This document shows, one piece after another, positions 19,659 to 62,983 of a DNA stretch of 64,000 nt (position 1 is its first letter; each line of letters opens with the position of its first letter). Source of the DNA: Mycobacterium paraseoulense (GTDB taxonomy: Bacteria; Actinomycetota; Actinomycetes; Mycobacteriales; Mycobacteriaceae); the NCBI RefSeq assembly GCF_010731655.1, contig NZ_AP022619.1, positions 248,001-312,000 on the forward strand. The letters are read 5' to 3'. Made by a program: the position numbers and the translations under genes. Under the pieces are notes generated by a model. That model had not been told where the DNA came from. It saw only the letters and a list, made by a program, of their open reading frames with translations, and ran no database searches.

Positions 19659-19663
19659 CCGCG

Positions 19664-21919
<2,256 letters not shown>

Positions 21920-21943
21920 CGCCAGTCATCGATGGTCGCGGGC

Positions 21944-21989: not shown

Positions 21990-22004
21990 AACAGGCCGGC
22001 GAAA

Positions 22005-22982
22005 ATGACTGACTCCGTCGACGAGCTCGCCAAGGCCGTTCGCGGGGGCGACCGCGCGGCGCTGCCCCGGGCCATCACGCTGCTGGAGTCGACCCGCGCC
22101 GACCATCACGAGAAGGCCCAGCGGCTGCTGCTGGAGCTGACCCCGGACTCGGGCAACGCCCACCGCGTCGGCATCACCGGGACGCCCGGGGTGGGGAAGT
22201 CGACCACCATCGAGGCGCTCGGCATGCATCTGATCGAGCAGGGGCATCGGGTCGCAGTGCTGGCCGTCGACCCGTCGTCGACGCGCACCGGTGGATCGAT
22301 TCTCGGCGACAAGACCCGGATGGCGCGCCTGGCGGTGCACCCGGACGCCTACATCCGGCCGTCGCCGACGTCGGGAACTCTGGGCGGCGTGGCAAAGGCC
22401 ACCCGGGAGACGGTGGTGCTGTTGGAGGCCGCCGGCTTCGACGTGATCATCATCGAGACCGTCGGTGTCGGCCAGTCCGAGGTGACGGTGGCCAACATGG
22501 TCGACACGTTCGTCTTGCTGACCCTGGCGCGCGGCGGCGATCAGCTGCAGGGCATCAAAAAGGGTGTGCTCGAGCTGGCCGACATAGTGGTGGTGAACAA
22601 GGCCGACGGCGAGCATCTGGCGGAGGCGCGGGTGGCCGCCCGCGAACTGTCCTCGGCGATCAGGTTGATCCATCCGCGCGAAACGCTTTGGCGGCCGCCG
22701 GTTCTCACGATGAGCGCGATGGAGGGGACCGGGCTCGAAGAATTGTGGGACACCATCGAACGTCATCGCCAGGTGCTCACCGAGGCCGGCGAGTTCGAGG
22801 CGCGCCGGCGGGCCCAGCAAGTCGACTGGACGTGGCAGCTGGTGCGCGACACCGTCTTGGACCGGGTGCTGTCCAACCCGAAGGTGCGCAAGCTGCGCGC
22901 CGACGTCGAACGCCGGGTCAAGGCGGGGGAGCTGACCCCCGCGCTGGCCGCCGAGCAAATATTAACGGCCGCGTCAGAATAA
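22005..22982 (+). CDS. meaB: MeaB/ArgK-type GTPase, mutase chaperone
   Basis: A 325-residue G3E-family GTPase (Rv1496). The Walker A motif GTPGVGKST lies near residue 60, then VDPSSTRTGGSILGDKTRM, the ETVGVGQSE switch region and the NKAD specificity motif. MeaB protects and reloads methylmalonyl-CoA mutase with intact adenosylcobalamin, consistent with its place 85 bp after mutB. M. tuberculosis has a MazEF4 toxin-antitoxin pair between these genes that is absent here. Confidence 0.95.
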   Translation: MTDSVDELAKAVRGGDRAALPRAITLLESTRADHHEKAQRLLLELTPDSGNAHRVGITGTPGVGKSTTIEALGMHLIEQGHRVAVLAVDPSSTRTGGSILGDKTRMARLAVHPDAYIRPSPTSGTLGGVAKATRETVVLLEAAGFDVIIIETVGVGQSEVTVANMVDTFVLLTLARGGDQLQGIKKGVLELADIVVVNKADGEHLAEARVAARELSSAIRLIHPRETLWRPPVLTMSAMEGTGLEELWDTIERHRQVLTEAGEFEARRRAQQVDWTWQLVRDTVLDRVLSNPKVRKLRADVERRVKAGELTPALAAEQILTAASE

Positions 22983-23044
22983 CGGATAGATAAACAATCC
23001 GATTTCGCTCCGGGAGGGTGTGAAATCCAAGTAAATTCAAAAAT

Positions 23045-37129: not shown

Positions 37130-38446
37130 TTAAATCCGACCCATGCCGTGGTACTCGAAGCCCTCAGTCCGTAGGCGTGCAGGGTCGTAGATGTTGCGGC
37201 CATCGAAGACCACCTGGCCTCGCATCGCCGACTTGACGCGCTGCCAAGACGGCCGCTGGAACTGCTTCCACTCCGTCAGCAGGAGCAACGCGTCGGCGCC
37301 CTGGACCGCGTCGTACATGTTTCCGGCGTACTCGATCGACTCTCCGAGCGCCTTTTTCGCCTTATCGGTTCCTTCGGGGTCAAAGGCCCGAACTAGCGCC
37401 CCGAGTTCGACCAGCGTTTTCGCGATGATTAACGAGGGGGCCTCGCGCACGTCGTCGGTCCGTGGCTTGAAGCTGAGTCCCCAGAGCGCGATGCGCAGGC
37501 CTTGCAGATTCTTCGTAGGCGACCCGCCCCCGAAACGGGCAACGATCTTGGACACTAGGGCGGCCTTTTGCTCGTTGTTGACCTGCTGGACCGCGCGCAG
37601 CAGACGCATGTCCGACCCCAGACCGTCGCCGGTATATAGAAGGGCCTGAACATCTTTCGGCAAGCATGACCCGCCATAGCCGATGCCGGGAAACAGGAAT
37701 TCATAACCAATGCGCTTGTCCGCCCCGATGGCCTCCCGCACCGCCGAGATATCGGCACCGGCCTTCTCGCACAAGTTCGAGATCTCGTTGATAAAGGAAA
37801 TCTTGGTCGCGAGAAAGGAGTTGGCCGCGTACTTCGCCATCTCGGCGCTCCTGATGTCGATGACGATCAGAGGATGAAAGGTGCGCAGGAACGGCTCGTA
37901 GAGCTCTCGCATGATATCGAGGGCGCGCTTAGAGTCGCCGCCGATGACCACGCGGTCGGGCTGCATGAAGTCGGCGACCGCTTTGCCCTGCTTCAGAAAT
38001 TCGGGGTTGGACACCACGTCGAACTCGTGTTTGGCCTTGCTGCGAATGATCGCTCGAACTTCGTCGGCAGTCCCGACAGGAACGGTCGACTTGTTGACGA
38101 CGACCTTGTAGCGGTCCATATAAGACCCGATATCATCAGCCGCGGAGTAGACGTGGGTGAGGTCGGCCGCACCACTCTGGCCCATGGGCGTTGGCACGGC
38201 GATGAAGATCACGTCTCCGTGTTCGATTCCGCGCCGCATGTCGGTCGTGAAGTCGATGAGCCCGTTCTCCCGGTCCGTTTCGATCAGCTCAGCCAGGCGG
38301 GGCTCGTAAATCGGGACTTCTCCCGCGAGTAGCTGGTCTATCTTGGCCTGGTCGATATCGACGCAGACGACGTCATTGCCGCTGTCCGCGAGGCAGGCAC
38401 CCGTGACGAGGCCGACATAGCCGGATCCGATAACCGTAATCTTCAA
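37130..38446 (-). CDS. UDP-glucose 6-dehydrogenase
   Basis: A 438-residue enzyme of the UDP-glucose/GDP-mannose dehydrogenase family. It has an N-terminal NAD motif GSGYVGLVTG, the family signatures IAVPTP and EFLKQG, and the catalytic Cys261 in GYGGSCLPKD. The TTG at 38446 is selected because AGAGG lies 5 nt upstream and it gives MKITVIGSGYVG, the usual beginning; the 26-codon extension to 38524 is not conserved-looking. It oxidises UDP-glucose to UDP-glucuronic acid, implying that the oligosaccharide contains GlcA, as several MAC serovar GPLs do. Confidence 0.93.
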   Translation of the reverse strand: MKITVIGSGYVGLVTGACLADSGNDVVCVDIDQAKIDQLLAGEVPIYEPRLAELIETDRENGLIDFTTDMRRGIEHGDVIFIAVPTPMGQSGAADLTHVYSAADDIGSYMDRYKVVVNKSTVPVGTADEVRAIIRSKAKHEFDVVSNPEFLKQGKAVADFMQPDRVVIGGDSKRALDIMRELYEPFLRTFHPLIVIDIRSAEMAKYAANSFLATKISFINEISNLCEKAGADISAVREAIGADKRIGYEFLFPGIGYGGSCLPKDVQALLYTGDGLGSDMRLLRAVQQVNNEQKAALVSKIVARFGGGSPTKNLQGLRIALWGLSFKPRTDDVREAPSLIIAKTLVELGALVRAFDPEGTDKAKKALGESIEYAGNMYDAVQGADALLLLTEWKQFQRPSWQRVKSAMRGQVVFDGRNIYDPARLRTEGFEYHGMGRI

Positions 38447-39536
38447 GATGACCTCTTCATTTCCTTCGATCGGTCCCGTGGTCCCGAAGCCAACGGTCTC
38501 ATGCGCGATCGGTCCCGAGTACATTTTCCACGGGTTGACCTAGATTCGATTTAACCCCCGGTCCGCTGTCAGAGAGCCCAACGCGGCCGTATAGCCATCA
38601 ACGTCGGCGCGTTCCCCTCACAAGAACTGGCCATCGACCGGCTGCAGGAGATCCGCCTGAGCAGGCATCCGGCCCGACGCCGCCAGTTCGTTCAACTCGA
38701 GCAGTCTGGGTCGGCGCGGGTGAGGCCGGCACCATGCGTTCATACAGAGAGCGCCAGTCATCTTCAGGTCGTACACAGGGAACCCGCCGTTTGGACTGGT
38801 TTCAGGATGGTGGTGATATCGGCGAATGAATTGGGTGGCTGTCGGCAAGGACTGGCTCAAAGAAGATTGGTCGAAATCTTCGGTGACGTGGGATCAGTGA
38901 GAGGCCAGGTTTCACTAAACGCCTTGGTGCGCAACTGGAAAGCTACACCAGCGAAACTGCATCACTGCGCGTGTGGCTGGAGCGGACATCCCATTGCTAG
39001 CCTGGGCGCTGACTGCTGGCTGGCCACGCTCCGGGTATGGCCAGCCCGATCGAGTCGACGACCTCGAAGCGCCGGCCGCGCACGTTGATGGCTGGCGACG
39101 GCAAATGTTCGTGCTGGACCACAAGCGGCGTCACCCGGTTTGTCCTAAGCTGAGATGCCATACCCTTCCCCAAGAGCCGCCGCCGACCCAAATATGTCGG
39201 TACCATCCCCAGAACCCGGGGCTGGTGGGTCTAGGAGTTGCAGAAGGGGTTGGGGGATGCTCGGACGCGACGTTAGTGGACCAAGGCGAACCCGAGATCG
39301 GCATGTGTTGTCGGGAGTGCATCGAAACGCGCGCCCCTGTGGGTGATCGTGATATCGCCGTTAGTGGTCAGGCCATTTCGTACGCGTAGCAGCGCCGCAA
39401 TCGGCTATGGCGTTTTGGACGGGCAGCGCTTGGTGATCGTGCGGCCCAGATGTGGTCACGAATATCATAATTAACGTGAGTTACTCAGTTGGCCATCAGT
39501 AGAGTTACTTCACTGAACCCGCTGGGGAGGCAACGC
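38447..39536. other. Long gap without recognised gene
   Basis: About 1.1 kb between divergently transcribed genes. The left 80 nt hold the UDP-glucose dehydrogenase leader. Several short frames exist on both strands (for example plus 38720-39088 and minus 38997-39206), but none has a recognisable domain or a good ribosome-binding site. It may be a decayed gene or insertion-sequence relic plus promoters. A dyad TAACGTGAGTTAC lies at 39472-39484. Confidence 0.5.
39472..39484. promoter_or_regulatory. TAACGTGAGTTAC dyad upstream of GT2 gene
   Basis: TAAC-N5-GTTAC, 53 bp before the GTG at 39537. A 12-of-13 match (TAACGCGAGTTAC, 46231-46243) lies upstream of the cytidylyltransferase gene. Possible common operator; speculative. 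Confidence 0.35.
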
Positions 39537-40538
39537 GTGACTGGCGAACGTCAATTAACCCGTGTGGACTCGGTCAGCGTCGTGATTCCGGTCTACAACG
39601 GAGCGGCGACCTTGCCCCACGTGGTGAAGGAGCTTGGACAACTCCGTTCGATACAGGAAACCGCCGGCGGTCGTCAGTTCCGCGTCGACGAGGTGCTCCT
39701 CGTGTGGGATCGGGGTATTCGCGGTAGCGACGACGTCGTCCGTGAGCTGGCTGCAAGCGACGAATGGGTCCGCCCGGTATGGCTGTCCCGCAACTTCGGA
39801 CAACATGCCGCCACCCTCGCGGGTATGACGTCGTCAGGCGGCGACTGGATCGTCACGATGGACGAGGATGGACAGCACGATCCGGCATATATCGGCGACT
39901 TTCTCGACAAGGCATACCGGGATCGCACACAACTCGTGTACGCCTCGCCGAAGAACCGACCACCCCACGGTGGCTTCCGCAACGCTTCGTCTTGGCTAAC
40001 GAAGTGGCTGTTCTTGCACGTGCTGGTGTCGTCCGAAGGGCTAAGGGCCTTCAACAGTTATCGACTGATCCTCGGCGAGGCCGGACGAAGTGTCGCCGCC
40101 TACGCTGGCGCGGGCGTGTTTCTTGACGTCGCTTTGTCTTGGGTTGTCGCCGACCCCTCAACCTGTCCGGTATTGATGCGCCAAGAAGGACGACCCGCTA
40201 GTGCGTATACCTTCCGGCGCTTGGTCTCGCATTTCTGGCGGCTCGTTGTCTCTTCGGGTACCCGCCCGCTGCGCTTCGTGTCCATGATGGGCATTCTGTT
40301 CGCCCTTCTCGGTTTGGGCGTGGCGATCTATAGCGTGATCCAGAAAGCGGTCGGAGGTATCACCGTGCAGGGGTGGACATCGGTGTTCGTGGCGGTGCTT
40401 GTCCTCGGAGGAGTCGTCTTGTTCGCGCTGGGAATCATCGCCGAGTATATCGCCGCTTCGGCCAGTATGGCGATGGGCAAACCGGTGTACGTCATCGTCC
40501 GCGATCCCGGTGACATCTTCGATGGCCCGGCGGACTGA
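39537..40538 (+). CDS. Membrane GT2, polyprenyl-phosphate sugar transferase type
   Basis: A 333-residue GT2 enzyme of the ArnC/GtrB/DPM1-like type: VSVVIPVYNGAATL at the start, a MDEDGQHDP metal site, LSRNFGQHAATLAG, and two C-terminal transmembrane helices (about residues 243-270 and 285-310) before a short cytoplasmic tail. The GTG at 39537 has GGGGAGG 6 nt upstream and is preferred to the TTG at 39489. Relatives load a sugar on to polyprenyl phosphate for use on the outer side of the membrane, or act directly in deoxysugar pathways. The adjacent SDR gene follows after 3 nt. Confidence 0.85.
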   Translation: MTGERQLTRVDSVSVVIPVYNGAATLPHVVKELGQLRSIQETAGGRQFRVDEVLLVWDRGIRGSDDVVRELAASDEWVRPVWLSRNFGQHAATLAGMTSSGGDWIVTMDEDGQHDPAYIGDFLDKAYRDRTQLVYASPKNRPPHGGFRNASSWLTKWLFLHVLVSSEGLRAFNSYRLILGEAGRSVAAYAGAGVFLDVALSWVVADPSTCPVLMRQEGRPASAYTFRRLVSHFWRLVVSSGTRPLRFVSMMGILFALLGLGVAIYSVIQKAVGGITVQGWTSVFVAVLVLGGVVLFALGIIAEYIAASASMAMGKPVYVIVRDPGDIFDGPAD

Positions 40539-40541
40539 CGA

Positions 40542-41501
40542 GTGCTTACCTGGGTCGTGGGTCGCGGCGGACTGCTCGGCAGCGCCGTGTCGCGGGCGAT
40601 TGGCCAGAGATTCATGGGACTTCCGGTGCCATGGGAAGACCACGATGCGGCGGTCGCCGCGCTCGACTCCGATCTTGAGCGATTCGTCCGAGCGGCCAGA
40701 AACGGCGATTGGTCGGTTATTTGGGCGGCCGGCAGCGGCGTCATCGGCTCCACGGCTGACCAACTAGACACTGAGACAAGCGTCATGTCTCACCTAGTTA
40801 CAAGAATGCGCGACTTTCGGCCAGACGGTCGCGGTGCGTTCTTCCTCTCATCCTCCGCGGGCGGTATCTATGCCGGCTCGACTCACCCACCATTTAGTGA
40901 GTCGACGACGCCGCGGCCGCTCAGCCCCTACGGCGAGGCGAAACTCGCTCAGGAGGAGATCTTGCAGACGACGCTCGGAGGCTGCGTCCCCGTGGTCATC
41001 GGACGGTTCTCAAATCTCGTCGGGCCTGGTCAGAACCTGATGAAACATCAAGGTCTCGTCAGTCAGCTGTGCCGGGCCGCCGTCACACGACAATCGCTAA
41101 ATGTTTTCGTGCCGATGGAGACGCTCCGCGACTACTTGTACGTGGATGATGCGGCCGCGATGGCTCGCACGCTGGTCGAGAATACCGTGCGCAACCAGCC
41201 GCTGACGCCGGTGTTACGCAACATTTCATCTCAACGGCCTGTGTCCGTCTGCGCTGTCGTACGGACGGTGCAACAGGTTGCGCACCGTACGGTCCGCATC
41301 GCGCTGGGGACCAGCCCGTCATCGCATTATCATGTTAGAGACCTGCGGCTTTACACTGACTTTCCGCATGATTTCCGGGGCGTGGCGATCACGCCGTTTC
41401 CCGTGACAGTCAAACGCGTGTACGACGATGTACTGTGGCGTGTGCGCCTCCGGGTATCGGAACCTGTGCTGAATAATTCTCGCCAAAAGGCCGCCCTTTA
41501 G
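40542..41501 (+). CDS. NAD-dependent epimerase/dehydratase family protein
   Basis: A 319-residue extended SDR. The nucleotide-binding loop is GRGGLLGS, without the typical ATG/GGTG lead-in; the catalytic motif is YGEAK, with LSSSAGGIYAG as the Ser strand. It starts 3 nt after the GT2 gene and is surely cotranscribed. Pairs of an ArnC-like GT and an SDR suggest modification of a lipid- or nucleotide-linked sugar. The reaction cannot be predicted. Confidence 0.8.
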   Translation: MLTWVVGRGGLLGSAVSRAIGQRFMGLPVPWEDHDAAVAALDSDLERFVRAARNGDWSVIWAAGSGVIGSTADQLDTETSVMSHLVTRMRDFRPDGRGAFFLSSSAGGIYAGSTHPPFSESTTPRPLSPYGEAKLAQEEILQTTLGGCVPVVIGRFSNLVGPGQNLMKHQGLVSQLCRAAVTRQSLNVFVPMETLRDYLYVDDAAAMARTLVENTVRNQPLTPVLRNISSQRPVSVCAVVRTVQQVAHRTVRIALGTSPSSHYHVRDLRLYTDFPHDFRGVAITPFPVTVKRVYDDVLWRVRLRVSEPVLNNSRQKAAL

Positions 41502-41637: not shown

Positions 41638-42471
41638 TCATCGCACGTCTTTTCGCACTCCGACAATCCGGGGCGGGTCAAAAGCGTTCTCGGGCCTTGC
41701 CCCAAAACGCAACAGTGCACGCTGGCTGTACTCGTCCGCAATACTTTCGGCGAGTTGTCGAATGGTCACCGGTTCACCTGAGCAGATGTTCACCGCCCCC
41801 TGATGCTGCCCCAGTGCGACATCGGCGATCATCCGAGCGGCGTCTTTCACATTGAGAAAATCGCGCACCTGGTCGCCGCGGGTGAGGAACACTTCCTGGC
41901 GGGCCGCTAGTTGCCTGCGAATGTATGGCACCAATCGCCGCTCATCTTCGCCTTCCCCGTATAAGTAGAAGATCCGGCACCAGGCAAAGCTCATGCCTTC
42001 CCCGCCCAAGAAATAACGGAGCACCTGAAAGGCCGACGCCTTGCAGGCGGCATACAAAGTATTCGGTGCCAACGGGGTATCGGTCGTCATCAAGCCTGCT
42101 GAAGAGTCGTACTCGGCGCAGCTTCCGATGCCAACGAATCGCTTGCCCCCGACCGTCGCAAATGCGGAGGCCAGGTTGAGCGTGCCAGTGAGGCACGAAA
42201 GGTTCAGTGAGGACGTGAGGTATTTGCCCGGCTCCGCATACCAAGCCGCATGCACCAGGATTTCCGATCCTTCTAGCAACTCTTCCAGTCGGCCGGTCGA
42301 TTCGGCAAACAAGTCGGGCGTGTTCACGACCTCTAGCGCTCCACGTGCCGGGACCTCATCAATACAGGACGGGTTGCGAACGAGCACCCTCACCGAGCAG
42401 CCCCGTTCGAGGAGATTGCGCAGGATCTGCCTTCCGACGAATCCCGTTGCTCCGGTTAAGGTAACGGTCAC
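41638..42471 (-). CDS. NDP-4-keto-6-deoxyhexose reductase (SDR)
   Basis: A 277-residue extended SDR with TLTGATGFVGRQIL at the N-terminus and YAACK as the Tyr-Lys pair, with GIGSCAEYD as the Ser strand. It is similar in style to the reductases ending CDP-sugar pathways (abequose/tyvelose-type RfbJ/S). It is the last gene of a five-gene minus-strand set for a CDP-deoxysugar, 72 nt after the C-methyltransferase. Predicted to reduce the 4-keto group of the C-methylated, epimerised intermediate. Confidence 0.78.
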   Translation of the reverse strand: MTVTLTGATGFVGRQILRNLLERGCSVRVLVRNPSCIDEVPARGALEVVNTPDLFAESTGRLEELLEGSEILVHAAWYAEPGKYLTSSLNLSCLTGTLNLASAFATVGGKRFVGIGSCAEYDSSAGLMTTDTPLAPNTLYAACKASAFQVLRYFLGGEGMSFAWCRIFYLYGEGEDERRLVPYIRRQLAARQEVFLTRGDQVRDFLNVKDAARMIADVALGQHQGAVNICSGEPVTIRQLAESIADEYSQRALLRFGARPENAFDPPRIVGVRKDVR

Positions 42472-42543
42472 GACAACCTCAGCTCGGGTCCAGAGCGTAT
42501 GTCGATCTCGTGGTCGACCGCTTCGTGTAAGTGATGCGAAACT

Positions 42544-43767
42544 TCACTGCACGCTTAATTTGGGGACCGCCGTCACGAAACGCGTGCCGCTGCGGACAAG
42601 GTCAGCCAATTGGGTCCGCACCTCACGAGCGATGTTCCAGGGCAAGATGAGGACATAGTCCGGTGGGTTCTCCCGCAGCGCCGCTGGTGAGGTGATAGGG
42701 ATATGGCTCCCTGGCATGAATTTTCCTTGCTTGGATGCCGCAGCATCGCACACGTACGGCAGCAAATCCGGTAGCACACCGGCGTAGTTCAACAGCGTGT
42801 TACCTTTCGCGGCGGCTCCATAGGCTGCCACGCGCCGGCCGGCGCGCTTCTGCTCGATTAGGAAAGCTAAGAGATCGTCCTTCACCCGATCGGCACGCTT
42901 CTGAAACTCGGTGTAGGTCTCAAGCTGCGTCATCCCAAACTGGTCCTCACGCAATAGCAGCGCACCGACGCGATCCGTAGTGGCGATCGGCGCCTCGACG
43001 TGGCAGCCGTACACACGCAAGCTGCCGCCGTGGGTTTGCAGTTCCTCCACGTCCCACACACGGATGCCAGCTGTGGCAAAGATGCGGGCCACCGTGGTGA
43101 GCGACAGGTAAGAGAAATGCTCGTGATAGACGGTGTCGAATTGGGTCTGTTCAATCATCGGCATCAGGTGCGGAAACTCAAGAGTGACGACGCCTTTGGG
43201 CTTCAGCACGGTGGCCAGCCCGCGGGTAAAGTCGTTAATGTCAGGTACGTGGGCATACACGTTGTTGCCGACGATCAGATCTGCGTGCCGCCCTTCATCA
43301 GCCAGTTGGCGTCCGAAGGTTCCGCCAAAGAATTCCCGCCTGACTGGGATTCCCAGCGCCTCAGCGGCTGCCGCTGTGCCCGCTGTGGGCTCGATGCCTA
43401 GGCAGGGGATGCCTGCTGCGACGAAGTTCTTCAGTAGGTAGCCATCATTGGAGGCCACTTCGATGACGAAGTTCTCAGGTCCAAGTTGCAGGCGCCTGGT
43501 GATCATGGCTACATACTCGGCCGCATGATCGAGCCAACTGCTCGAAGTGCTTGAGAAGTAGGCGTAGTCGGCGCTGAACAATTCTTCGGCGCGGGCGTAG
43601 TCCTCGGTCTGCACCAGCCAGCACTGGTGACACACCTTTACGCGCAGTGGATAGTGCACTTCCGGGTTGCACAGGTCTTCGGCCTCCAGGTACGCGTTGG
43701 ACGGAGGCGCAAAGCCCAAGTCCACAAAGGTGTGCTCCACTGGCGTACCGCAGTGTCGGCATTTCAT
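42544..43767 (-). CDS. NDP-hexose C-methyltransferase
   Basis: A 407-residue three-domain methyltransferase of the TylC3/TcaB9/EvaC type. The N-terminal zinc-binding domain has Cys3, Cys6, Cys46 and Cys49 (CRHCG, CHQCW). The SAM domain has VIEVASNDGYLLKNF and GIEPTAGTA. The C-terminal domain contains YGAAAKGNTLLN. These enzymes transfer a methyl group to C-3 of a 4-keto-6-deoxy nucleotide sugar, creating a branched sugar. Its start overlaps the stop of the RmlC-like gene (ATGA). With CDP-glucose genes next to it, the likely substrate is a CDP-linked 4-keto sugar. Confidence 0.9.
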   Translation of the reverse strand: MKCRHCGTPVEHTFVDLGFAPPSNAYLEAEDLCNPEVHYPLRVKVCHQCWLVQTEDYARAEELFSADYAYFSSTSSSWLDHAAEYVAMITRRLQLGPENFVIEVASNDGYLLKNFVAAGIPCLGIEPTAGTAAAAEALGIPVRREFFGGTFGRQLADEGRHADLIVGNNVYAHVPDINDFTRGLATVLKPKGVVTLEFPHLMPMIEQTQFDTVYHEHFSYLSLTTVARIFATAGIRVWDVEELQTHGGSLRVYGCHVEAPIATTDRVGALLLREDQFGMTQLETYTEFQKRADRVKDDLLAFLIEQKRAGRRVAAYGAAAKGNTLLNYAGVLPDLLPYVCDAAASKQGKFMPGSHIPITSPAALRENPPDYVLILPWNIAREVRTQLADLVRSGTRFVTAVPKLSVQ

Positions 43768-44315
43768 AACGCGACTCCTATGAAGTCGGCGTCCAGGAGT
43801 GGATGGGATAGGTCGCGCGGTGAAATGTCCTCAGGTGGCAATGGCCAGGTAATGGCTAGGCGGGGGTCATCGTGACGTAGCCCGCTCTCGGCGGGCGGGT
43901 GGTAAAACGCGGTGTGCAGGTATAACAACTCGCTGTCAGGCTCTAATGTCTGGAAGCCGTGGGCGAATCCTTCTGGGATGACAAGCATTTGGACCTTGTC
44001 TTGTGCGAGTTCCTGCGCGTGCCACTGCAAGAACGTGGACGATCCCGTTCGCAGGTCAACCGCGACGTCCCACACTCGGCCGCGAAGGCAGCGGACCAAT
44101 TTCATTTCCGCATGTGGCGGGTGTTGAAAATGCATGCCCCGGATGGCCCCGGCACGGTTGGTTCTGGAGTGGTTAATCTGCGCGATTTGGCGCTGTCCCA
44201 GCACGGGCTCAAGCTCGTCGGCGCAGAAGATGCGGATGAATGCGCCGCGCTCGTCGTAATGCGGCAAGGACTCCACAAGTTTCAGGTCGGGGATCGGGGT
44301 GTCGAGGATCCTCAT
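43764..44315 (-). CDS. RmlC-like NDP-4-keto-6-deoxyhexose epimerase
   Basis: A 183-residue cupin epimerase of the dTDP-4-dehydrorhamnose 3,5-epimerase family. Catalytic His62 (RGMHFQ), Lys72 (EMKLVR) and Tyr138 (FYHP) are present at the standard RmlC positions, and the DPRLAITWP segment follows. The ATG at 44315 overlaps the upstream dehydratase stop (ATGA). It may act as a 5-epimerase (or 3,5-) converting the intermediate to the L-series. True dTDP-rhamnose RmlC is usually encoded elsewhere, so this copy is dedicated to the CDP-sugar set. Confidence 0.88.
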   Translation of the reverse strand: MRILDTPIPDLKLVESLPHYDERGAFIRIFCADELEPVLGQRQIAQINHSRTNRAGAIRGMHFQHPPHAEMKLVRCLRGRVWDVAVDLRTGSSTFLQWHAQELAQDKVQMLVIPEGFAHGFQTLEPDSELLYLHTAFYHPPAESGLRHDDPRLAITWPLPPEDISPRDLSHPLLDADFIGVAL

Positions 44316-45400
44316 GTTGTTGCCCAAGCCAAATCCGATGCCACCGCATCTGTGATGTATGCGTCCAGTTGGTCCGCGCTCGCCACTTGACCGAGTTCCA
44401 GCCATCGGCGATACCAGTCGGCCGTGTGGTGGACTGCCTTTTCAAGATTCCAGACGGGACGCCAGCCGAGATGCATCTTCGCCTTGGCTGTGTCGAGCTG
44501 CAGCAAGCCCGCCTCGTGTGGCTGCGGACTGGATGCAGCTTGCCACCGAAGATCTGGCCACGAGCGAGCAAAGTCTCCTAGCACTTGCTCAACCGTACGG
44601 TTCCCTTCCCCGTCCGGGCCGAAATTCCACGCATCGCCAACCGTGATGTCACCCGCCAGTAGCCGCTCACCCAGTAGCAGGTACCCACTGAGGCAATCCA
44701 GCACGTGTTGCCAGGGGCGCGTTGCGCGCGGCGACCGAATGACTGCTGGCTCTCCAGCGACGAGGGAACGCATTAGGTCTGGGATCAGTCGGTCCTCAGA
44801 CCAGTCACCGCCGCCGATAACATTGCCGCCCCTGCCAGTTGCGAGCAGCGGAGCCGAGGGCTGCTGGAGAAACGCATTTCGGTAGCTCGCGGCGACCAAC
44901 TCGGCGCCGGCCTTAGACGCGCTGTAGGGGTCGCGGCCGCCCAGGCGGTCCCGTTCGCGGTAGGCCCAAGGCCATTCGCGATTCTCATAGCACTTGTCAG
45001 TCGTGACGACTACCACAGCACGCACACTTGGTGTGTGACGGGCGGCCTCGAGTACATGCACCGTGCCCATGACATTGGTGGACCATGTAGCGACCGGCTC
45101 GTGGTACGACCGACGGACCAACGGTTGGGCTGCCAAATGGAAGACGATCTCCGGCCTCTCCGCAGCGAAGACCTCGCGGACTGCCGCTTCATCGCGAATG
45201 TCGATGCGATGATCGGCCATGGATAGCTTCAGTAGGTCCCAATGGCTTGGTTCGGACGATGGGTCCAATGCAAGCCCAGCGACGTCAGATCCCAGCGCAT
45301 GCAGCCAAAGACACAGCCAACTGCCTTTGAAGCCTGTGTGGCCAGTGACGAAGACCCGGCGCCCGCGATATGCGGTTCCGAAAGCGTTCAACGCCAGCAT
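44312..45400 (-). CDS. rfbG: CDP-glucose 4,6-dehydratase
   Basis: A 362-residue extended SDR of the RfbG/DdhB type. The NAD motif is [11 protein letters not shown] (typical of CDP-glucose dehydratases rather than RmlB), with [11 protein letters not shown] and YSASK as the catalytic region and [16 protein letters not shown] in the C-terminal half. It converts CDP-D-glucose to CDP-4-keto-6-deoxyglucose. It overlaps the cytidylyltransferase gene by 13 nt (start at the second ATG, 45400; 45406 is possible) and the RmlC-like gene by 4 nt. Confidence 0.93.
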
Positions 45401-46161
45401 TTCCACGGCGCTTTGCCGCTACTCCATAGTTCTTCGAGCAGATTCCTGTCTCGGAGTGTGTCCATAGGCTGCCAGAAGCCAGAATGCTTGAAGGCAATCA
45501 TTTCGCCGTCGGCGGCGAGACGAGCCAATGGCGCGCTTTCCCAAGAGATCTCGTCGCCCTCAATGTAATCGAGTACCGCGGGCGACAGGACAAAAAAGCC
45601 ACCATTAATGAGTCCGCCATCGCCACGCGGTTTCTCGACAAAGCGCGTGACTTGGTCGCCCTCGCACTCGATGGCCCCGTATCGCCCAGGCGGAAGCACC
45701 GCGGTAACCGTGGCGTGACGCCCGTGCTGGCGGTGGAATTCGATGCTCGCGCCGATGTTGACGTCGCTCAACCCATCACCGTAGGTGAAGCAGAAAGCCT
45801 CATCGTCTTGAATGTAGGTTGCCACGCGTTTGAGACGCCCGCCCGTCATCGTGTCTTCACCAGTATCTACCAGCGTTACTCGCCAGGGTTCTGCGTGGCG
45901 CACATGTACCTCCATTTTGTTAATGGACATATCAAAAGTCACGTCCGACATGTGCAGGAAATAGTTGGCGAAATATTCCTTGATGACGTAACCCTTATAG
46001 CCACAGCAAACGACAAAATCGTTAATACCATGCTGAGAGTAGAGCTTCATTATGTGCCACAGGATCGGCCGTCCGCCAATTTCCACCATCGGTTTAGGGC
46101 GGATGCTGGTTTCCTCCCTCAGGCGAGTCCCTGCACCGCCTGCCAGTAATACGGCTTTCAT
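45388..46161 (-). CDS. rfbF: Glucose-1-phosphate cytidylyltransferase
   Basis: A 257-residue nucleotidyltransferase of the RfbF/DdhA type: [18 protein letters not shown] signature loop, [22 protein letters not shown] active-site Asp, and [14 protein letters not shown] near the end, a hallmark of CDP-glucose pyrophosphorylases. It makes CDP-glucose from glucose-1-phosphate and CTP. The ATG at 46161 begins the conserved MKAVLLAGG; the frame continues 13 codons upstream. It is first in the five-gene CDP-sugar operon. Confidence 0.95.
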
Positions 46162-56281: not shown

Positions 56282-57346
56282 CTAGCATTCTTTGCCGCCC
56301 TGCCGCACGGAACTCCTTGTGCCCCTTGTGGTCCCGGTTCGGCTTCTGGAGCCGGACGGCCAAACATCGACCAGCCCTCTTCGGCTGGGCGCAACGGCAG
56401 CCAGCCTTCGTCTCAAAATGTTGAGCCGCCGCGTGGGCGTCGCCCAGCGGTATTGCAGCGCCAGCATTGCGAACCGCGGATGCTGTGCGATGGTGTTCTC
56501 GAGCGCGGCGCGACCTTCCGGGCCCGGGACCTTTGCGATCTGGTGCAGGATCCAGTCAGCCATCACCGTGATGAGCTCTTGGCACGCGGGGTCGCCCGGG
56601 AAGAGGTCAAACATGGCATCGAACGTCGCCGCATGACCGGGGCCGTGCGTCAGCCAGAACTGGGAAGGGTCCACGACCTGGTTATGCCACATGCCTTCAG
56701 AATGGCGGCGGTAGACGGCCATCGTTTCCGGCAACATAGCGATTTCGCCGTGAACAGCGTGCCGGACGTGCAGGTACCAGTCCAGCGGCATGATGTCGGC
56801 GGGGATGTCGTCGTAGCGCTCGAGACGGCGGTAGACGACGGAGTTGGTTTGGATGAAGTTCATCAAGATCAGGGCGTCGACGGTCAAGTTGCCGCGTAAG
56901 TACACCGGTGGGAACTTCGAGTCTTTGGCAGAACCGTCATCCCACATCACCCGCACCGGGTGGAAGCACACGGCCGTCCCCGGGTGTTGGTCGAGGTACG
57001 TGACTTGCTTGCTCAGCTTAAGTGGATCGATCCAGAAGTCGTCTCCCTCGCACAGTGCGACGTACTCGCCCCGCGCTAGCGACAGGGCACCCACCAGGTT
57101 CTTGTTGAGGCCCAGGTTCTCGGGTCTGAAGATCGGCCGGAACAATTCCGGGTAGCGCTGGGCGTACTCCCGAATGATCCCCGGGGTGGCGTCAGTCGAG
57201 GCATCGTCGGCGACGATGATCTCCATCGCGAAATCGGTCCGCTGGGTGACAAAGCTGTCGAATGCCTCTCGGACGTAAGCCTCTTGGTTGTGGGTGGTGG
57301 TCACGATGCTGACTTTGGGTGAGTTTGCCGCCGCCCTTTCGTTCAC
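56282..57346 (-). CDS. GT2 glycosyltransferase (Rv1516c-like)
   Basis: A 354-residue GT2 enzyme: VSIVTTTHNQEAYVREAFDS, IIVADDASTDATPGI, the VALCEGDDFWIDP metal site (EGDDFW is characteristic of this subgroup) and a C-terminal Arg-rich extension. It is 10 nt upstream of the preceding glycosyltransferase on the same strand, so the two are cotranscribed. It matches Rv1516c in order. Likely a chain-extending transferase of the variable oligosaccharide. Confidence 0.88.
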   Translation of the reverse strand: MNERAAANSPKVSIVTTTHNQEAYVREAFDSFVTQRTDFAMEIIVADDASTDATPGIIREYAQRYPELFRPIFRPENLGLNKNLVGALSLARGEYVALCEGDDFWIDPLKLSKQVTYLDQHPGTAVCFHPVRVMWDDGSAKDSKFPPVYLRGNLTVDALILMNFIQTNSVVYRRLERYDDIPADIMPLDWYLHVRHAVHGEIAMLPETMAVYRRHSEGMWHNQVVDPSQFWLTHGPGHAATFDAMFDLFPGDPACQELITVMADWILHQIAKVPGPEGRAALENTIAQHPRFAMLALQYRWATPTRRLNILRRRLAAVAPSRRGLVDVWPSGSRSRTGTTRGTRSSVRQGGKEC

Positions 57347-57416
57347 CGCGGAAACCTCATTGGGTGAGCCGAGCCAACGACCTTGGTGCCGTGGTGCATT
57401 GCGATGTCGAAACGCC

Positions 57417-58208
57417 TCACGCGTTGGCTTCGGCCGCGAAACGATAGCCGCGCAGGGCCATCGGAATGAACAGCGCTAACAGCACGACCGCCCAGAGGAG
57501 AGTCATCTCCAGAGGCTGGAGGAGGGGGCCGCCGTGGGCCAGTCCCCACATCACCTCTATCGGTGGCGACATCGGTTGCATGCGAACAAGTGGACGAAGC
57601 CAGTCCGGGAACAGCCCGATCGGGGTCGTGCCGGGATTGAGGAATGCCAGCGAGACCGTACCGGCCGCCAGCCACGTCATGACGGTGCGACCATTCGCAC
57701 GGATGGCAAGCGCCATCACCAGCGCCGTGAATCCGATTACCACGATTGGCGGTATCAGAATGTAAAGCAGTGCCGTGGCCCAGCCGTGTGCGAACCGCAG
57801 GCCCAGCGCCACTCCCAGCGCGGTGATCAGAATCGTCCCGAGGAGTGCCCGCGCGGCCTCGGCGGCGATCCGTCCGGCGAGCGCACTCACCCGGTGTATC
57901 GGTAGCACCCACATGCGGCTGAGCAGCCCGGATTCGCGCTCGAGCTGTATGCCGACCGAGGTGCTGAAAGCGCCGAATAGCGCGGACAACACCGCGCTCA
58001 CCGGGACCAGGCCGTAGATGCTCTCGACGCCGGTGACCTGATGTACCCGCTCGCCAAGCACCACCTTGTAGGTGACGAGAAGGCAGATCGGCAAGACCAG
58101 CGAACCCATCAGCACCGCTCGGTCCCGCTGCCACCGGGTCAGGAGTCGACCCGCTTGCACCCAGCTCTGGGCCAGCATCGAGCCCTGGATTCCCGGCTGC
58201 GTTGTCAC
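57417..58208 (-). CDS. drrC: ABC-2 type permease DrrC
   Basis: A 263-residue ABC-2 permease with about six transmembrane helices and the conserved WLRPLVRMQPMSPPIEVM motif near the C-terminal third, as in daunorubicin-resistance type exporters. The GTG at 58208 overlaps the drrB stop, indicating coupling. The longer open frame to 58520 runs inside drrB and is not used. In MAC GPL loci drrC marks the right end of the serovar-variable segment. Probably forms the membrane channel together with DrrB. Confidence 0.92.
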   Translation of the reverse strand: MTTQPGIQGSMLAQSWVQAGRLLTRWQRDRAVLMGSLVLPICLLVTYKVVLGERVHQVTGVESIYGLVPVSAVLSALFGAFSTSVGIQLERESGLLSRMWVLPIHRVSALAGRIAAEAARALLGTILITALGVALGLRFAHGWATALLYILIPPIVVIGFTALVMALAIRANGRTVMTWLAAGTVSLAFLNPGTTPIGLFPDWLRPLVRMQPMSPPIEVMWGLAHGGPLLQPLEMTLLWAVVLLALFIPMALRGYRFAAEANA

Positions 58209-58948
58209 TAGGTCCGCCTCTGCATCCGCAGCGTGATCGCACCGAAGACCAATACCATGCCCATACACCAGGCGAGGCTGATGGCTAGGTTGCCAGAGAC
58301 AACCCGGCCGGTGGCCAGGTTGCGCAGCGTCTCGGCGACCTGCGACACGGGCTGGTTGCGGACAAACGGGCGTAACCATTGGGGGAATGTGCTCTCCGGG
58401 GCAATTCCGGTGGACAGCATGAAGAGCATGAGCTGTGGGACGAACAGGAGCTGGGTGGCGCCCTGGATACTTCTGGCGCTCGAGCCCATCGCATCGGCCC
58501 CCAGCGCCACGGCCAGGCACAACAGCAACGCGATGAGCACGAAGGCCAGCGCGTACCCCGCTCCACCGGTGATCCGGAAACCGAACGCGTAGCCGGCGAC
58601 CATTGCGACCGTGAGGGCGAGCGCCCCCCGCATCAGGGTGGCGACCATCCGCGCGCTTACGGGGACTACTGCGGCGATCGGGAGAGTCGCCAAACGCTCA
58701 CCGAGCGAAGTCAGGCGGTCGCGTGCCGCGCGATCGGCGGTGAGCAGCGCGACGAAGATCACGGACTGGGCGACGACGCCGGGAACCAAATACTGTGAAT
58801 AAGTCATGCGCTGCGTTTCGACCAGACCATGCAGCGCCGCAGTGAAGCCGGCTAGATACGCAACGGGAGACATTATCTCGAAAACCAACCCGCCGTCGCG
58901 CGCGGAGGCCATCAGCGAGCGTTCGGTAAGGGCGGCCAATGCGCTCAT
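58208..58948 (-). CDS. drrB: ABC-2 type permease DrrB
   Basis: A 246-residue ABC-2 permease, paralogous to DrrC, with about six helices and the corresponding WLRPFVRNQPVSQVAETLRNL motif. Its start overlaps the drrA stop by 4 nt (ATGA). Together with DrrA and DrrC it would form a lipid exporter. The analogous M. tuberculosis DrrABC exports phthiocerol dimycocerosate; the substrate here is presumed to be GPL, but that is inference from location. Confidence 0.92.
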   Translation of the reverse strand: MSALAALTERSLMASARDGGLVFEIMSPVAYLAGFTAALHGLVETQRMTYSQYLVPGVVAQSVIFVALLTADRAARDRLTSLGERLATLPIAAVVPVSARMVATLMRGALALTVAMVAGYAFGFRITGGAGYALAFVLIALLLCLAVALGADAMGSSARSIQGATQLLFVPQLMLFMLSTGIAPESTFPQWLRPFVRNQPVSQVAETLRNLATGRVVSGNLAISLAWCMGMVLVFGAITLRMQRRT

Positions 58949-59946
58949 GACTGAGCCACGGACCGTTCGGTGAGGTGCAGGAACGCTTCGTCCAGTGAGG
59001 GCTTGCGCAGCGAGATGTCGGCGAGCTCGATGCCCAGTGCGTCGACCCTGCGAAACACCTCAGCCAGCGTGGTTACTCCGTCCGGGGCGAACAGCGAGAC
59101 CGAATTGGCCTCGCCGTCGACGTCGATCCCGTCGAGCCCGGTCAGTGCCGCCGCGACCTGCGGTAAGTCGGCAGGATTCGCCGGGGTCACCTGGCAATAG
59201 CTGCCACCGGCCCTGCGCTTGAGGTCCTCGGCGGTGCCGCTGGCCACCACCTGTCCGTGGTCGATGACAACGATCGAATCGCTGAGTACGTCGGCTTCTT
59301 CCAAGTACTGCGTGGTAAGCAGCACGGTCATGCCCTGCAGGGCCAACGAGCTCACCAGCGACCACACGGCGCGACGGCTACGCGGGTCCAGCCCTGTGGT
59401 CGGCTCGTCGAGGATCAGCACCTTCGGGGGCACCATCAATGCGCTGGCAAGGTGGACGCGCCGCCACATGCCTCCGGAGTATGTGGATACCCGCCGGTCG
59501 CCGGCCGCCTCGAGGTCGAACTGATCGATCAGCTCGTCGGCGCGAGCCTTGGCCTGCTTGCGGCGGAGACCCCGCAGCCGCCCGAACAACACCAGGTTCT
59601 CTCGGCCGGTGAGCAAAGGGTCCAATGCGGTGGACTGGCCGGCCATCCCGATGCTGGCACGCACCTGGGCGGACTGACGGATGATGTCATATCCGGCAAC
59701 GGTGGCATGGCCCGAACTCGGCCGGATCAGCGTGGAAAGGATGTTGATGGTGGTCGTCTTGCCGGCGCCGTTGTGGCCGAGCAGGCCGCATACCGTCCCC
59801 GCCGGAACCGAGAAGTCGACGCCACGCAGCGCCGGCGTGCTTTGCCCGAATGTCTTTGTGAGGCCGACAACCTCAATCGCCAATGGGCTCACAGTGGTGA
59901 GTATTTCATGCGGAATGCCCCCGTGTTGACCGTTCGGGTAGTACAT
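58945..59946 (-). CDS. drrA: ABC transporter ATP-binding protein DrrA
   Basis: A 333-residue ATPase of the DrrA/CcmA group. The Walker A is GHNGAGKTTT, the signature is YSGGM, the Walker B is VLILDEPTTGLD, and the switch His lies in LLTTQYLEEAD. The C-terminal domain is of the DrrA type. The start may be the ATG at 59946 or the GTG at 59892 (VSPLAIEVVGLTK), as no ribosome-binding site decides. It is first of the drrA-drrB-drrC operon. Confidence 0.93.
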   Translation of the reverse strand: MYYPNGQHGGIPHEILTTVSPLAIEVVGLTKTFGQSTPALRGVDFSVPAGTVCGLLGHNGAGKTTTINILSTLIRPSSGHATVAGYDIIRQSAQVRASIGMAGQSTALDPLLTGRENLVLFGRLRGLRRKQAKARADELIDQFDLEAAGDRRVSTYSGGMWRRVHLASALMVPPKVLILDEPTTGLDPRSRRAVWSLVSSLALQGMTVLLTTQYLEEADVLSDSIVVIDHGQVVASGTAEDLKRRAGGSYCQVTPANPADLPQVAAALTGLDGIDVDGEANSVSLFAPDGVTTLAEVFRRVDALGIELADISLRKPSLDEAFLHLTERSVAQS

Positions 59947-60070: not shown

Positions 60071-62983
60071 TTAAACCGAAGGCCTTGGAATTTCCGTTGT
60101 AGGCGTATCGTCGGCGAACCTTCGGTGTAGCAACAGGGATCGCACCAGGGGACGGGGCCCCTCAGCCCGAAGCATTTGACTGGCGGGGCGCGGACGAACT
60201 ATCTGTGGCCACCAGAACCAACGTCCGAGCAGCCTGGCGATAGACGGTGTCATGAACGAGCGTACGATCAACGTGTCGAACAACAGCCCTAGACCAATGG
60301 TGGTACCCACCTGACCGATGATCCGCAAATCGCTGACCACCATTGCGGCCATCGTGAATGCGAACACCAGGCCCGCGTTCGTCACGACCTTACCGGTACC
60401 GCCCATCGCCCTAATGATGCCGGTGTTGATACCGCCGGCTATTTCCTCTCTCATCCGGGACACCAGCAACAGGTTGTAGTCGGACCCCACCGCCAGAAGG
60501 ACGATCACAGACATTGGCAGCACCATCCAGTACAAATTTATGCCAAGGATGTATTGCCAGATCAGTACGGACAGACCGAATGACGAGCCGAGCGAAAGTG
60601 CCACAGTGCCGACGATTACCAGTGAGGCCACGAAACTTCGCGTGATGATCAGCATGATGATGAAAATAAGGCAGAGTGCGCCCACTCCTGCGATGAACAG
60701 ATCGTAGGTGGAGCCATCGCGGAAGTCTTTGAATGTCGATGCGGTGCCGGCGATGTAGATCTTGGACGGCTCCAGGGGGGTCGTCTTGAGCGCCTCCTCG
60801 GCCGCCGTCCGTATCTTGTCGATACGCGCGAGACCCTCTGGTGACGCGGGATCGCCCTTGTGGGAAATGATGAATCGCGCCGCTTTTCCGTCCGGCGACA
60901 AGAACTGGCTCATCGCGCGCTTGAAATCCTCGTTCTTGAAGATGTCGGGCGGCAGATAAAAGGAATCGTCGTCCTTGGCGGCGTCGAACGTCGCCCCCAT
61001 GGCGGTGGCGTTCTCTTTCTGGTTGTTCATCTGGCCGAGGGTTCCGTTCATGGTGCTGTAACTGGTCAGCAGCATGTTCCGCGCGTCCTCGGCAACCGCG
61101 ATCGACACCGGAAAAACCTCGAGCAGTTTTGGCAGCAGCGCGTCCATCTTGTTCAGATCGACAATAAGTTCGTCGAGTTTATCGCTCAGCGTGTCGATAC
61201 CGTCGAGTTCCTCAAATATATTCCTCATAGCCCAGCAGATGGGGATGTCGTAGCAATGCCGTTCCCAGTAGAAATAGCTTCGGAGCGGCCTGAAGAAATC
61301 CTCGAAGTCCGAAAAGTGATCTCTGAGGTCGGATATAACGTCACGCATTTCTTTCGTCTTGGCGATCGACTCATGCGTAATAGCCGTTATCTGCTTTTGC
61401 AGTGCGTACATGCGCTTCATCGACGCAATTTGGAAGGACAATACGTCCGCCTGCTTCAGCATGTCTGCAGTGCGGGCTTTCATGTATGTCTGATCTTGCT
61501 GCATCACCGCGTATTGCATTTGCATCAAGAAAGGTATTGACGTGTGCTGAATTGGGGTGCCCTCGGGTCGGGTTATGCCCTGCACCCGGGAGATGCCGTG
61601 AACCTTGAATATCGCCTTAGCCAGTCTGTGCAAGACGAGGAAATCCGCCGGATTGCGCATGTCGTGGTCCGATTCGATCATCACGATTTCGGGCATCATC
61701 CGCGCTTGAGAGAAATGACGATCGGCGGCCGCGTACCCGACGTTGGCGGGAATGTCGTTGGGCATGTAGAAGCGGTTGTTGTAGCTAGTCTGATAGCCGG
61801 GCAGGGTCACCAGCCCGACCACGGCCACCGCTATAGTCGCAGCGAGAATGGGTACGGGCCAGCGGACAATCGCCGTGCCGATCCGGCGCCATCGACCGAA
61901 GGCGAGAACCCGTCTGGGGTCGAAGAGCCCGAAACCGCTCCCGAGAGTGATAACCGCCGGAACCAAGGTAAGCGCGATCACGACCGCCACGAGCATGCCC
62001 ACGGCGCACGGCACACCCATGGTCTGGAAGATGGGCATGCGGGTAAAGCCGAGGCACAACATCGCCCCGGCGATCGTCAAGCCGGAGCCCAAGACAACGG
62101 GGGCTACGCCACGATAGGTGGTGTAGAAGGCCGTTTCCCGGTCCTCGCCGGCCTGGCGCGCTTCCTGGTAACGGCCGAAGAAGAAGATTGCGTAGTCGGT
62201 TCCGGCCGCCATCGCAAGCGCCACCAGCAGATTGACGGCAAAAGTGGAGAGCGCGACGAGACTGTGATCGCCGAGAAAGGCGACGATTCCGCGGGCCGCA
62301 AGGACCTCGATTCCCACGGTGACCAGCAACAAAATTACGGTGAGGACCGACCGGTACACGAAGAGCAGCACCACAAAAATGATCAGCGCGCCCACCGCGG
62401 TCATCTTCAGAATGGATCCGTCACCGGCCTGCTGCATGTCCGACAACAGCGCTGATGGACCGGTGACATAGACCTTGAGCCCCGGCGGCGGCGTGGTATG
62501 CGCGATGATACTGCGGACCGCGGCGATGGAGTCCTGACCGAGGGTGGTGCCTTGGTTGCCGGCCAGGTTGAGTTGCACGTAGACGGCCTTGCCGTCGTCA
62601 CTCTGGGCACCCGCCGCCGTCAGCCGGTCTCCCCATAGATCCTGGACATGCTCGACATGCTTCGGGTCGGCTTTTAGCGCACGGACCAATTGGTCGTAAT
62701 AGTTGTGAGCGTCGTCCCCGAGGCGCTGCTGCCCCTCCAGCACGATCATTGCAATGCTGTCCGAATCGGACTCCTTGAAATCCTTGCCCATACGCTGCAT
62801 CGCCTGGACCGCCGGTGCGTCCTGGGGAGCCAATGGCACGGAATGCTCTCGGCCCACCGTCTCCAGCCAGGGAACACCGAAAGTCACCAGCAGCGTCAGC
62901 GCGACCCACGCCAGGACGATGAGCACCGAGAACCGGCGGATGCTCCGGGCGAAGAACGGCCCTCGACCGGTTTCGGTGCTCAT
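60071..62983 (-). CDS. MmpL-family RND lipid transporter
   Basis: A 970-residue RND transporter of the MmpL4/TmtpC type found in GPL loci. There is a TM1 near residues 17-40, a large extracytoplasmic loop, then TM helices with the Asp-Tyr proton-relay pairs GTDYAIFF (about residue 262) and [11 protein letters not shown] in the second half. A long second extracytoplasmic domain contains a coiled-coil stretch (about residues 480-600, [18 protein letters not shown] and on). MmpL4a/4b proteins export GPL precursors with an MmpS partner and Gap. No mmpS gene is in view. It is 159 nt downstream of the next mmpL. Confidence 0.93.

Follow-up and report, generated by a model that had tools for sequence, protein, structure and literature searches.

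We found that five genes on the minus strand of a 64,000-nucleotide stretch of the Mycobacterium paraseoulense genome (NZ_AP022619.1, positions 248,001 to 312,000; hereafter the window) probably form one pathway to CDP-6-deoxy-3-C-methyl-L-hexose, a sugar that would be transferred to the GPL of the same locus. The genes for DdhA, DdhB, an RmlC-type epimerase, a C-methyltransferase (CMT) and an extended SDR (SDR5) are five open ORFs at 41638-46161. DdhA and DdhB overlap by 13 nt (19 nt with the GTG start of DdhB), DdhB and the RmlC-type gene by 4 nt, and the RmlC-type gene and the CMT by a further 4 nt, while a gap of 72 nt separates the CMT from SDR5; this layout, described in an earlier sequence-only reading, was confirmed by ORF and family checks. 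In the proposed route, DdhA would form CDP-glucose, which DdhB would convert to CDP-4-keto-6-deoxyglucose; the CMT would place a methyl group from SAM on C3 and the RmlC-type protein would invert C5, in either order, and SDR5 would reduce the C4 ketone. Because C2 would keep the glucose configuration, the product is expected to be the L-manno or L-talo form, which would then be passed to the GPL made by the window locus.

Both enzyme families of the CDP-glucose 4,6-dehydratase route are over their cut-offs, in agreement with the CDP-glucose start that had been read from the sequence. DdhA, the glucose-1-phosphate cytidylyltransferase (45388..46161, minus strand), matches TIGR02623 at 463.3 bits (cut-off 300.25) and 1tzf at 432.9 bits; DdhB, the CDP-glucose 4,6-dehydratase (44312..45400 from its ATG, with an alternative GTG start at 45406; minus strand), matches TIGR02622 at 468.9 bits (cut-off 278.45). 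Against solved CDP-glucose 4,6-dehydratases, DdhB scores 364.6 bits (1rkx) and 363 bits (1wvg), and its next-best solved match is a dTDP-glucose dehydratase at 76.5 bits. These first two steps are common to the pathways for CDP-3,6-dideoxyhexoses such as ascarylose and abequose, which, however, require an RfbH-type E1. The claim that no such dehydratase is present held in a profile search of the whole window genome, where NF011936 gave 0 matches; all 14 of the 14 control genomes were matched, none over cut-off. On this result a 3,6-dideoxy product was rejected.

The zinc-type sugar C-methyltransferase (42544..43767, minus strand), proposed to act at C3, carries the zinc-binding Methyltransf_13 domain (PF08421, 81 bits) and a C-terminal Methyltransf_14 domain (PF08484, 202 bits), both over cut-off, and has no NCBIfam match. 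The same two domains make up the TylC3-type 3-C-methyltransferases MtmC (4rv9), 5t6b and TcaB9, to which the CMT aligns over its full length at 225-258 bits. That these nearest solved relatives are named sugar 3-C-methyltransferases supports the C-methyltransferase assignment in the sequence-only reading. The relatives come from dTDP pathways of antibiotics, whereas the window CMT is adjoined by CDP genes. When all candidates were scored, this CMT was the only PF08421 match in the window genome, and each of the four kansasii-type genomes tested (G222, G091, G057 and G158) likewise had one PF08421 gene, the CMT.

Some enzymes of this type act at a different carbon: NovU methylates C5 in noviose biosynthesis, and one Pfam pair serves both C3 and C5 sites. 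The RmlC-type protein (43764..44315, minus strand; PF00908, 194.5 bits) scores 148.4 bits against the 3,5-epimerase equivalog TIGR01221, falling just short of the 155.75 that is required, and its match to NovW reaches 98.3 bits. Were the CMT to methylate C5 and the RmlC-type protein to act as a C3-epimerase, a 5-C-methyl sugar would result, but we regard this as quite improbable given that the named solved relatives are 3-C-methyltransferases and that the four kansasii-type genomes tested carry this PF08421 gene only, kansosamine being a 3-C-methyl sugar. We favour methylation at C3, with the RmlC-type protein as the putative C5 (3,5) epimerase. In the RmlC alignment, the columns of Salmonella R60, H63, K73, H120, Y133 and D170 are identical in the window protein and in all 98 rows, and the Y139 column is conserved in 91 of the 98. 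The L-series sugar proposed earlier is a reasonable expectation.

The core of the set is common among other bacteria. Of the 80 nearest named loci (taken from 588, and so biased to close relatives), 67 have ddhA-ddhB-rmlC ahead of the CMT on the same strand, and the grouping of these genes is not due to chance. Among 396 sampled genomes, 24 mycobacterial ones (M. paraseoulense included) encode a CMT of at least 71% identity; DdhA and RmlC accompany it in all 24, with DdhB between them in 19. The class-wide search found matches at E <= 1e-120 in 15 of 394 genomes, four of which belong to the same genus (M. paraseoulense included), and the remaining 11 show 48-55% identity; both searches scored at most four candidates per genome. 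Next to the distant mycobacterial CMTs of loci L165-L169 (48-52%) lies a DdhA-like gene, with DdhB and RmlC not beside the CMT (in L168 an RmlC-like match is found 7.7 kb upstream), and L170 and L171 (CMT 43-44%) have a DdhA-like match at 35-36%. As L165-L171 are without the full gene set, complete association with CDP genes is a property of the close CMT clade.

Within that clade, the CMT is typically accompanied by CDP genes, and on the 67 of the best 80 loci the view of a CDP-linked C-methyl version as unusual was rejected. This is where the sequence-only reading has to be revised: its CDP start, C-methyltransferase, absence of RfbH and GPL locus stand, and its description of the CDP version as unusual does not. 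The same counts bear on the suggestion that the CMT uses a dTDP sugar supplied by genes at another site, with the CDP genes serving a different sugar. RmlA and RmlB are indeed encoded elsewhere in the window genome, and the dTDP origin of the solved relatives would fit, but beyond the recurrent CDP genes, RmlB exceeds 80 bits in one named locus only (L016, beside ddhAB) and, with overlapping matches resolved, RmlA has no match in the named loci (again the best 80 of 588); we consider a dTDP substrate very improbable. In a published account of Sinorhizobium meliloti, a distant organism, SMb21416-21418 appear with consecutive locus numbers as ddhA, ddhB and an NDP-hexose 3-C-methyltransferase (PMC4053727), the same three enzymes as in the window, in a passage that names no product.

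SDR5 (41638..42471, minus strand; PF01370, 115.6 bits) is the proposed C4-ketoreductase. Its motifs GATGFVG at 7 and YAACK at 140 are in place, and G7, G10, G13, Y140 and K144 are invariant across 31 of 31 rows; no NCBIfam family is over cut-off (rmlD, 19 bits) and the best solved relative is weak, at 50 bits at best. Across 99 CMT-clade loci, an aminotransferase ending was observed in 34, SDR5 in 29 and both in 0, where about 10 would be expected. This count leaves out L002-L005 and L027 (whose contigs equal in length those of L144, L151, L156, L154 and L164) and the seven outgroup loci L165-L171. On the CMT tree there are 18 changes between the two ending states (shuffled mean 21.5). Neither ending nor another SDR lies right after the CMT in 18 of the 99 loci, some of which are on short contigs, and in two of them, L158 and L159, SDR5 is present but farther from the CMT. 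The gene after the CMT appears to set the C4 state, through an aminotransferase or SDR5 and never both. No such aminotransferase was detected within 4 kb of the CMT or elsewhere in the window, nor a homologue in the window genome by a search run without a positive-control genome.

Alternatively, SDR5 could be a neighbour with another role, the C4 ketone being reduced by SDR6 or another enzyme to give the same product class. SDR6, an NAD-dependent epimerase-like protein (40542..41501, plus strand; PF01370, 70.6 bits), is by position a relative of MKAN27430c. The lack of a specific family for SDR5 and its 72-nt distance from the CMT are compatible with such a role, as is its variable position and strand among mycobacteria: it lies within 4 kb of the CMT in 11 of the 24 genomes, on the opposite strand in nine of these, and is less tied to the CMT than DdhA, DdhB and RmlC are. 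Against this, SDR5 orthologues (48-57%) directly follow the CMT in 17 of the 80 named loci (best 80 of 588), and SDR5 and the aminotransferase never share a locus. SDR6, present in 10 of 23 mycobacterial relatives, also occurs in six of the nine mycobacterial loci of the aminotransferase form (L142, L143, L145, L148, L150 and L154) and is thus not tied to C4 reduction. We find this alternative unlikely and retain SDR5 as the candidate C4-reductase.

The best-anchored relative of the window genes is the LOS cluster of M. kansasii. The LOS contains N-acylkansosamine, and the cluster MKAN27430c-27450 encodes an epimerase, a GT2, a cytidylyltransferase, an epimerase/dehydratase and a 'rhamnose epimerase'; the gene table lists no aminotransferase, and the CDP genes were not assigned to kansosamine (PMC4403928). 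Its gene order is the same as in the window, but this cluster makes LOS whereas the window is a GPL locus. Loci L142 and L148 are hit without mismatch by the published MKAN27435 primers; both hold M. kansasii LOS-type genes that continue with the CMT and an aminotransferase, where the window ends in SDR5. The window relative of MKAN27435 is a GT2 glycosyltransferase (39489..40538, plus strand; PF00535, 66.2 bits), which the forward primer matches at 39564 with two mismatches; the reverse primer has no window match within three mismatches. A 16S comparison did not place the window genome in the MAC, giving nearly the same closeness for G364 (2715 bits) and for G222 (2712 bits), the genome of L148 with its M. 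kansasii LOS genes.

The alternative ending and the kansosamine link are new beyond the sequence-only reading. Judging from gene content, the aminotransferase form of the cassette probably makes the kansosamine of M. kansasii. SDR5 would occupy the place of the aminotransferase in related loci, including those of the M. kansasii LOS type, where the aminotransferase would yield kansosamine from the shared intermediate; the window sugar would be its neutral counterpart.

The assignment of the window to a GPL locus, made earlier, is supported by two MmpL genes and by NRPS genes beyond the window. The first MmpL gene lies at 60071..62983 (minus strand; PF03176, 768.9 bits) and the adjacent second runs past the window end; farther on, Condensation matches mark two NRPS ORFs (3474 and 2548 aa), presumably mps1 and mps2 by size and place. 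The locus also includes ABC transporter genes of drr type, which serve as a marker of GPL loci (57343..59946, minus strand; PF00005, 117.3 bits; PF01061, 54 bits), of which the third (57343-58242) is named by position only and has no Pfam match, and a nucleotide-sugar (UDP-glucose-like) dehydrogenase (37130..38524, minus strand; TIGR03026, 458.3 bits, cut-off 189.8). Within the 16-20 kb taken from each of 23 mycobacterial relatives, however, drr genes occur in five and LOS-type SDR6 and GT2 genes in 10, so the sugar could be destined for another glycolipid. An LOS-like destination, with the sugar made as proposed, would accord with the M. kansasii cluster (PMC4403928), but we judge it rather doubtful: MmpL and NRPS genes adjoin in the window genome, and L155 and L158-L161 also have the cassette beside drr genes. 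Transfer to GPL is the destination we prefer. L155 (G364) is a GPL locus that carries the aminotransferase form; if its host is M. intracellulare ATCC 13950, and if the serovar 16 GPL of that strain is without a C-methyl sugar, the GPL sugar cannot simply be read off from the cassette. A literature search gave no usable account of the serovar 19 GPL or of C-methyl GPL sugars.

With middling confidence, we propose more widely that ddhA-ddhB-rmlC-CMT is a cross-phylum cassette for a CDP-4-keto-6-deoxy-3-C-methyl-L-hexose branch point, at which one exchangeable last gene would set the antigen: the aminotransferase would lead to kansosamine and SDR5 to a neutral sugar resembling vinelose or nogalose. 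The CDP-vinelose of Azotobacter and the virenose of Coxiella are 6-deoxy-3-C-methyl hexoses like the proposed window sugar, and vinelose is likewise CDP-linked. Our literature search found no vinelose genes, and we know of no published genes for the vinelose-, nogalose-like or kansosamine-type sugars of this model. For virenose, a published study proposes dTDP or GDP routes (PMC3539893), in contrast to CDP in the window. If the model is true, genes could be assigned to kansosamine, a characteristic M. kansasii LOS sugar, and to CDP-linked C-methyl sugars generally, which would be less exotic than thought. The MKAN27435-type GT2 would become a candidate for transferring the CDP sugar instead of fucose, and the choice of aminotransferase or SDR5 would offer a one-gene marker for an amino or neutral branched sugar in a mycobacterial glycolipid or proteobacterial polysaccharide. 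L155 also has a formyltransferase and a CmcI-type O-methyltransferase in its locus, perhaps pointing to an N-formyl kansosamine form in some GPLs.

The loci compared here probably encode a shared core pathway with an exchangeable step at C4, its product being kansosamine (4-amino-4,6-dideoxy-3-C-methyl-L-mannose) or the neutral counterpart. The observation of a five-gene set in the sequence-only reading is sound: all five ORFs are confirmed on the minus strand, and the overlaps it gave (13, 4 and 4 nt) are correct, as is the gap of 72 nt before the SDR gene. DdhA (45388-46161) clears the NCBIfam cut-off of the glucose-1-phosphate cytidylyltransferase family, and DdhB (44312-45400, or from a GTG at 45406) that of the CDP-glucose 4,6-dehydratase family. 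The third product, an RmlC-type member of PF00908, scores 148.4 bits with the NCBIfam RmlC equivalog profile, under the cut-off of 155.75, and keeps the Salmonella R60, H63, K73, H120, Y133, Y139 and D170 columns in the alignment. The fourth, the C-methyltransferase (CMT), has both of its C-methyltransferase domains, and its solved relatives include 4rv9 (D-mycarose 3-C-methyltransferase), 5t6b and 5t64 (sugar 3-C-methyltransferases) and TcaB9. The fifth, SDR5, belongs to the extended SDRs and has no more specific name; its GxxGxxG and YxxxK residues are invariant across 31 of 31 aligned rows.

We examined the best 80 of 588 confirmed CMT loci, the majority labelled Proteobacteria in the tree, and found ddhA, ddhB and rmlC upstream of the CMT gene on the same strand in 67. 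After overlapping matches were resolved, these 80 loci held one RmlB match above 80 bits (L016, beside ddhAB) and no RmlA match. CDP genes are thus the rule for this CMT clade, and the earlier view that a CDP version is unusual was wrong. The 13 exceptions are L004, L005, L009, L032, L037, L042, L045, L047, L054, L063, L066, L076 and L080; L045 and L047 have little upstream sequence covered, and in L042 both DdhA and DdhB are present at another position. Within the genus, a CMT of at least 71% identity occurs in 24 of 396 sampled genomes, the window's own included (next best, 52%). These 24 form one clade (SH-aLRT 98) among the 99 close-clade rows of a quick-method tree, which is compatible with a single entry into mycobacteria. 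In five of the 24 loci (L143, L147, L154, L156 and L157) the operon lacks ddhB at its place between ddhA and rmlC, with at least three changes on the CMT tree; recognisable remnants persist in L143 and L156, and each of the five except L156 contains a second DdhB-like stretch, of 48-51% identity, at another site. More distant mycobacterial CMTs (L165-L169, 48-52%) adjoin a DdhA-like gene without DdhB or an adjacent RmlC, perhaps another CDP sugar route. The RmlC-type gene of L163 (also L117:798-1501) matches as two separate pieces and may be interrupted or diverged.

The 4 kb downstream of CMT were scored in 99 loci (75 named non-mycobacterial loci from the best 80 of 588, 23 mycobacterial loci and the window) for a same-strand DegT/DnrJ/EryC1 aminotransferase (>300 bits) and an SDR5 orthologue (>200 bits). 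The aminotransferase was found in 34 loci, lying within 60 nt of CMT in 32 of them, and SDR5 in 29, and no locus had both, against a chance expectation of about 10 (hypergeometric P 3e-7, relatedness ignored). Another SDR follows CMT in 18 loci, and a further 18 have none of these genes; among the latter, L158 and L159 have SDR5 farther off, and some end soon after CMT. Looser thresholds yielded one locus, L034, with weak matches to both. If L158 and L159 are assigned to the SDR5 group, the endings change at least 18 times on the CMT tree (shuffled labels: mean 21.5, minimum 13), so they are exchanged often and the exclusion does not stem from one lineage. Mutual exclusion is the pattern that would be expected of two enzymes consuming one C4 ketone, and it is mainly for this reason that we call SDR5 a putative C4-reductase. 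Among the mycobacterial loci, SDR5 occurs in 11 (13 with L158 and L159) and the aminotransferase in nine. A CmcI-type sugar O-methyltransferase gene is found downstream in 46 of the 99 loci, alongside either ending, and none was found in the window. No homologue of the kansasii-type aminotransferase was found in the window genome, searched without a positive-control genome using a query that finds the 34 aminotransferase loci by tblastn.

The aminotransferase ending can be anchored in the M. kansasii LOS cluster described in PMC4403928. Genes tabulated there (Table 1) include MKAN27430c (epimerase), 27435 (glycosyltransferase), 27440 (glucose-1-phosphate cytidyltransferase), 27445 (epimerase/dehydratase) and 27450 (rhamnose epimerase), none of which has an orthologue in M. 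marinum, and also 27475 (methyltransferase); an aminotransferase is absent from the table. Fucose and N-acylkansosamine are present in LOS-IV and higher (PMC4403928). Both MKAN27435 primers match loci L142 and L148 with zero mismatches, and the gene order in both is SDR6, GT2, DdhA, DdhB, RmlC, CMT and aminotransferase. In L148, CMT and the aminotransferase overlap by 4 nt and a TylF-type methyltransferase lies farther downstream; in the similar L154, an ATP-grasp-like gene that would suit N-acylation follows the aminotransferase. With all candidates scored, a single PF08421 gene, the CMT, is present in each of four genomes that carry such a locus (G222, G091, G057 and G158). Judged by gene content, the kansasii-type genes and kansosamine fit closely, an assignment that is our proposal and is absent from PMC4403928; passages of a second paper naming kansosamine, PMC4703794, do not touch on it. 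The window's GT2 (39489-40538) and SDR6 (40542-41501), both on the plus strand, are relatives of MKAN27435 and MKAN27430c, respectively, and adjoin the operon inside a GPL locus.

For the window, we infer the activities, the stereochemistry and the destination of the sugar. DdhA and then DdhB would perform the first steps, CMT would methylate C3, the RmlC-type protein would epimerise C5 and SDR5 would act at C4. The product would be L-manno or L-talo provided that C5 is inverted and C2 left unchanged, for which dTDP-L-rhamnose biosynthesis is the model. RfbH has no match in the window genome, in line with the earlier statement that an E1/E3 dehydratase is lacking; the earlier pathway is mostly right, apart from its CDP argument.

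EryCIII-like glycosyltransferase, TylF-type O-methyltransferase and nucleotide-sugar dehydrogenase genes flank the operon on one side, and GDP-mannose dehydratase, epimerase (Fcl-like by position), drr-like ABC transporter and two MmpL genes on the other. Past the window end lie an ORF of mmpS size and three more, 3474, 2548 and 8229 aa long, that match the NRPS Condensation domain. We take the region to be a GPL locus, as had been proposed, on the strength of the MmpL pair, the drr-like genes and these NRPS ORFs. The 8229-aa ORF (G000:C1:333984-358673; 85984-110673 in window numbering, outside the window) comes third after two GPL-locus NRPS genes. PMC11978893 reports that some mycobacteria have additional GPL-like NRPS loci of variable size; in M. 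abscessus the distance from the first locus is 600 kb.

In 16-20 kb stretches from the 23 mycobacterial relatives, SDR6 and GT2 occur together in 10 and drr genes in five, none of which has SDR6 in the stretch taken; GPL as the destination of the sugar is therefore likely but not certain. Two gene arrangements weigh against the pathway reading: SDR5 often stands apart in mycobacteria, on the opposite strand in nine of 11 loci, and the five loci named above have no ddhB in the operon. One GPL locus (L155:7601-14403) combines the aminotransferase form with a formyltransferase (PF00551) and a CmcI-type O-methyltransferase, the set that would be expected for N-formyl-kansosamine. Its genome may be that of M. 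intracellulare ATCC 13950, whose serovar 16 GPL is not known to contain a C-methyl sugar; if both points are right, they argue against the cassette simply predicting the GPL sugar. The single 16S match in the window genome is 99% identical to those of G364 (which carries L155), G222 (which carries L148), G091 and the genome of L004, with nearly equal scores against G364 (2715 bits) and G222 (2712 bits). The locus is bordered at 17757-24331 by two methylmalonyl-CoA mutase genes, MeaB and a beta-lactamase-fold gene, a set that is also located beside the M. tuberculosis Rv1492-Rv1497 region.
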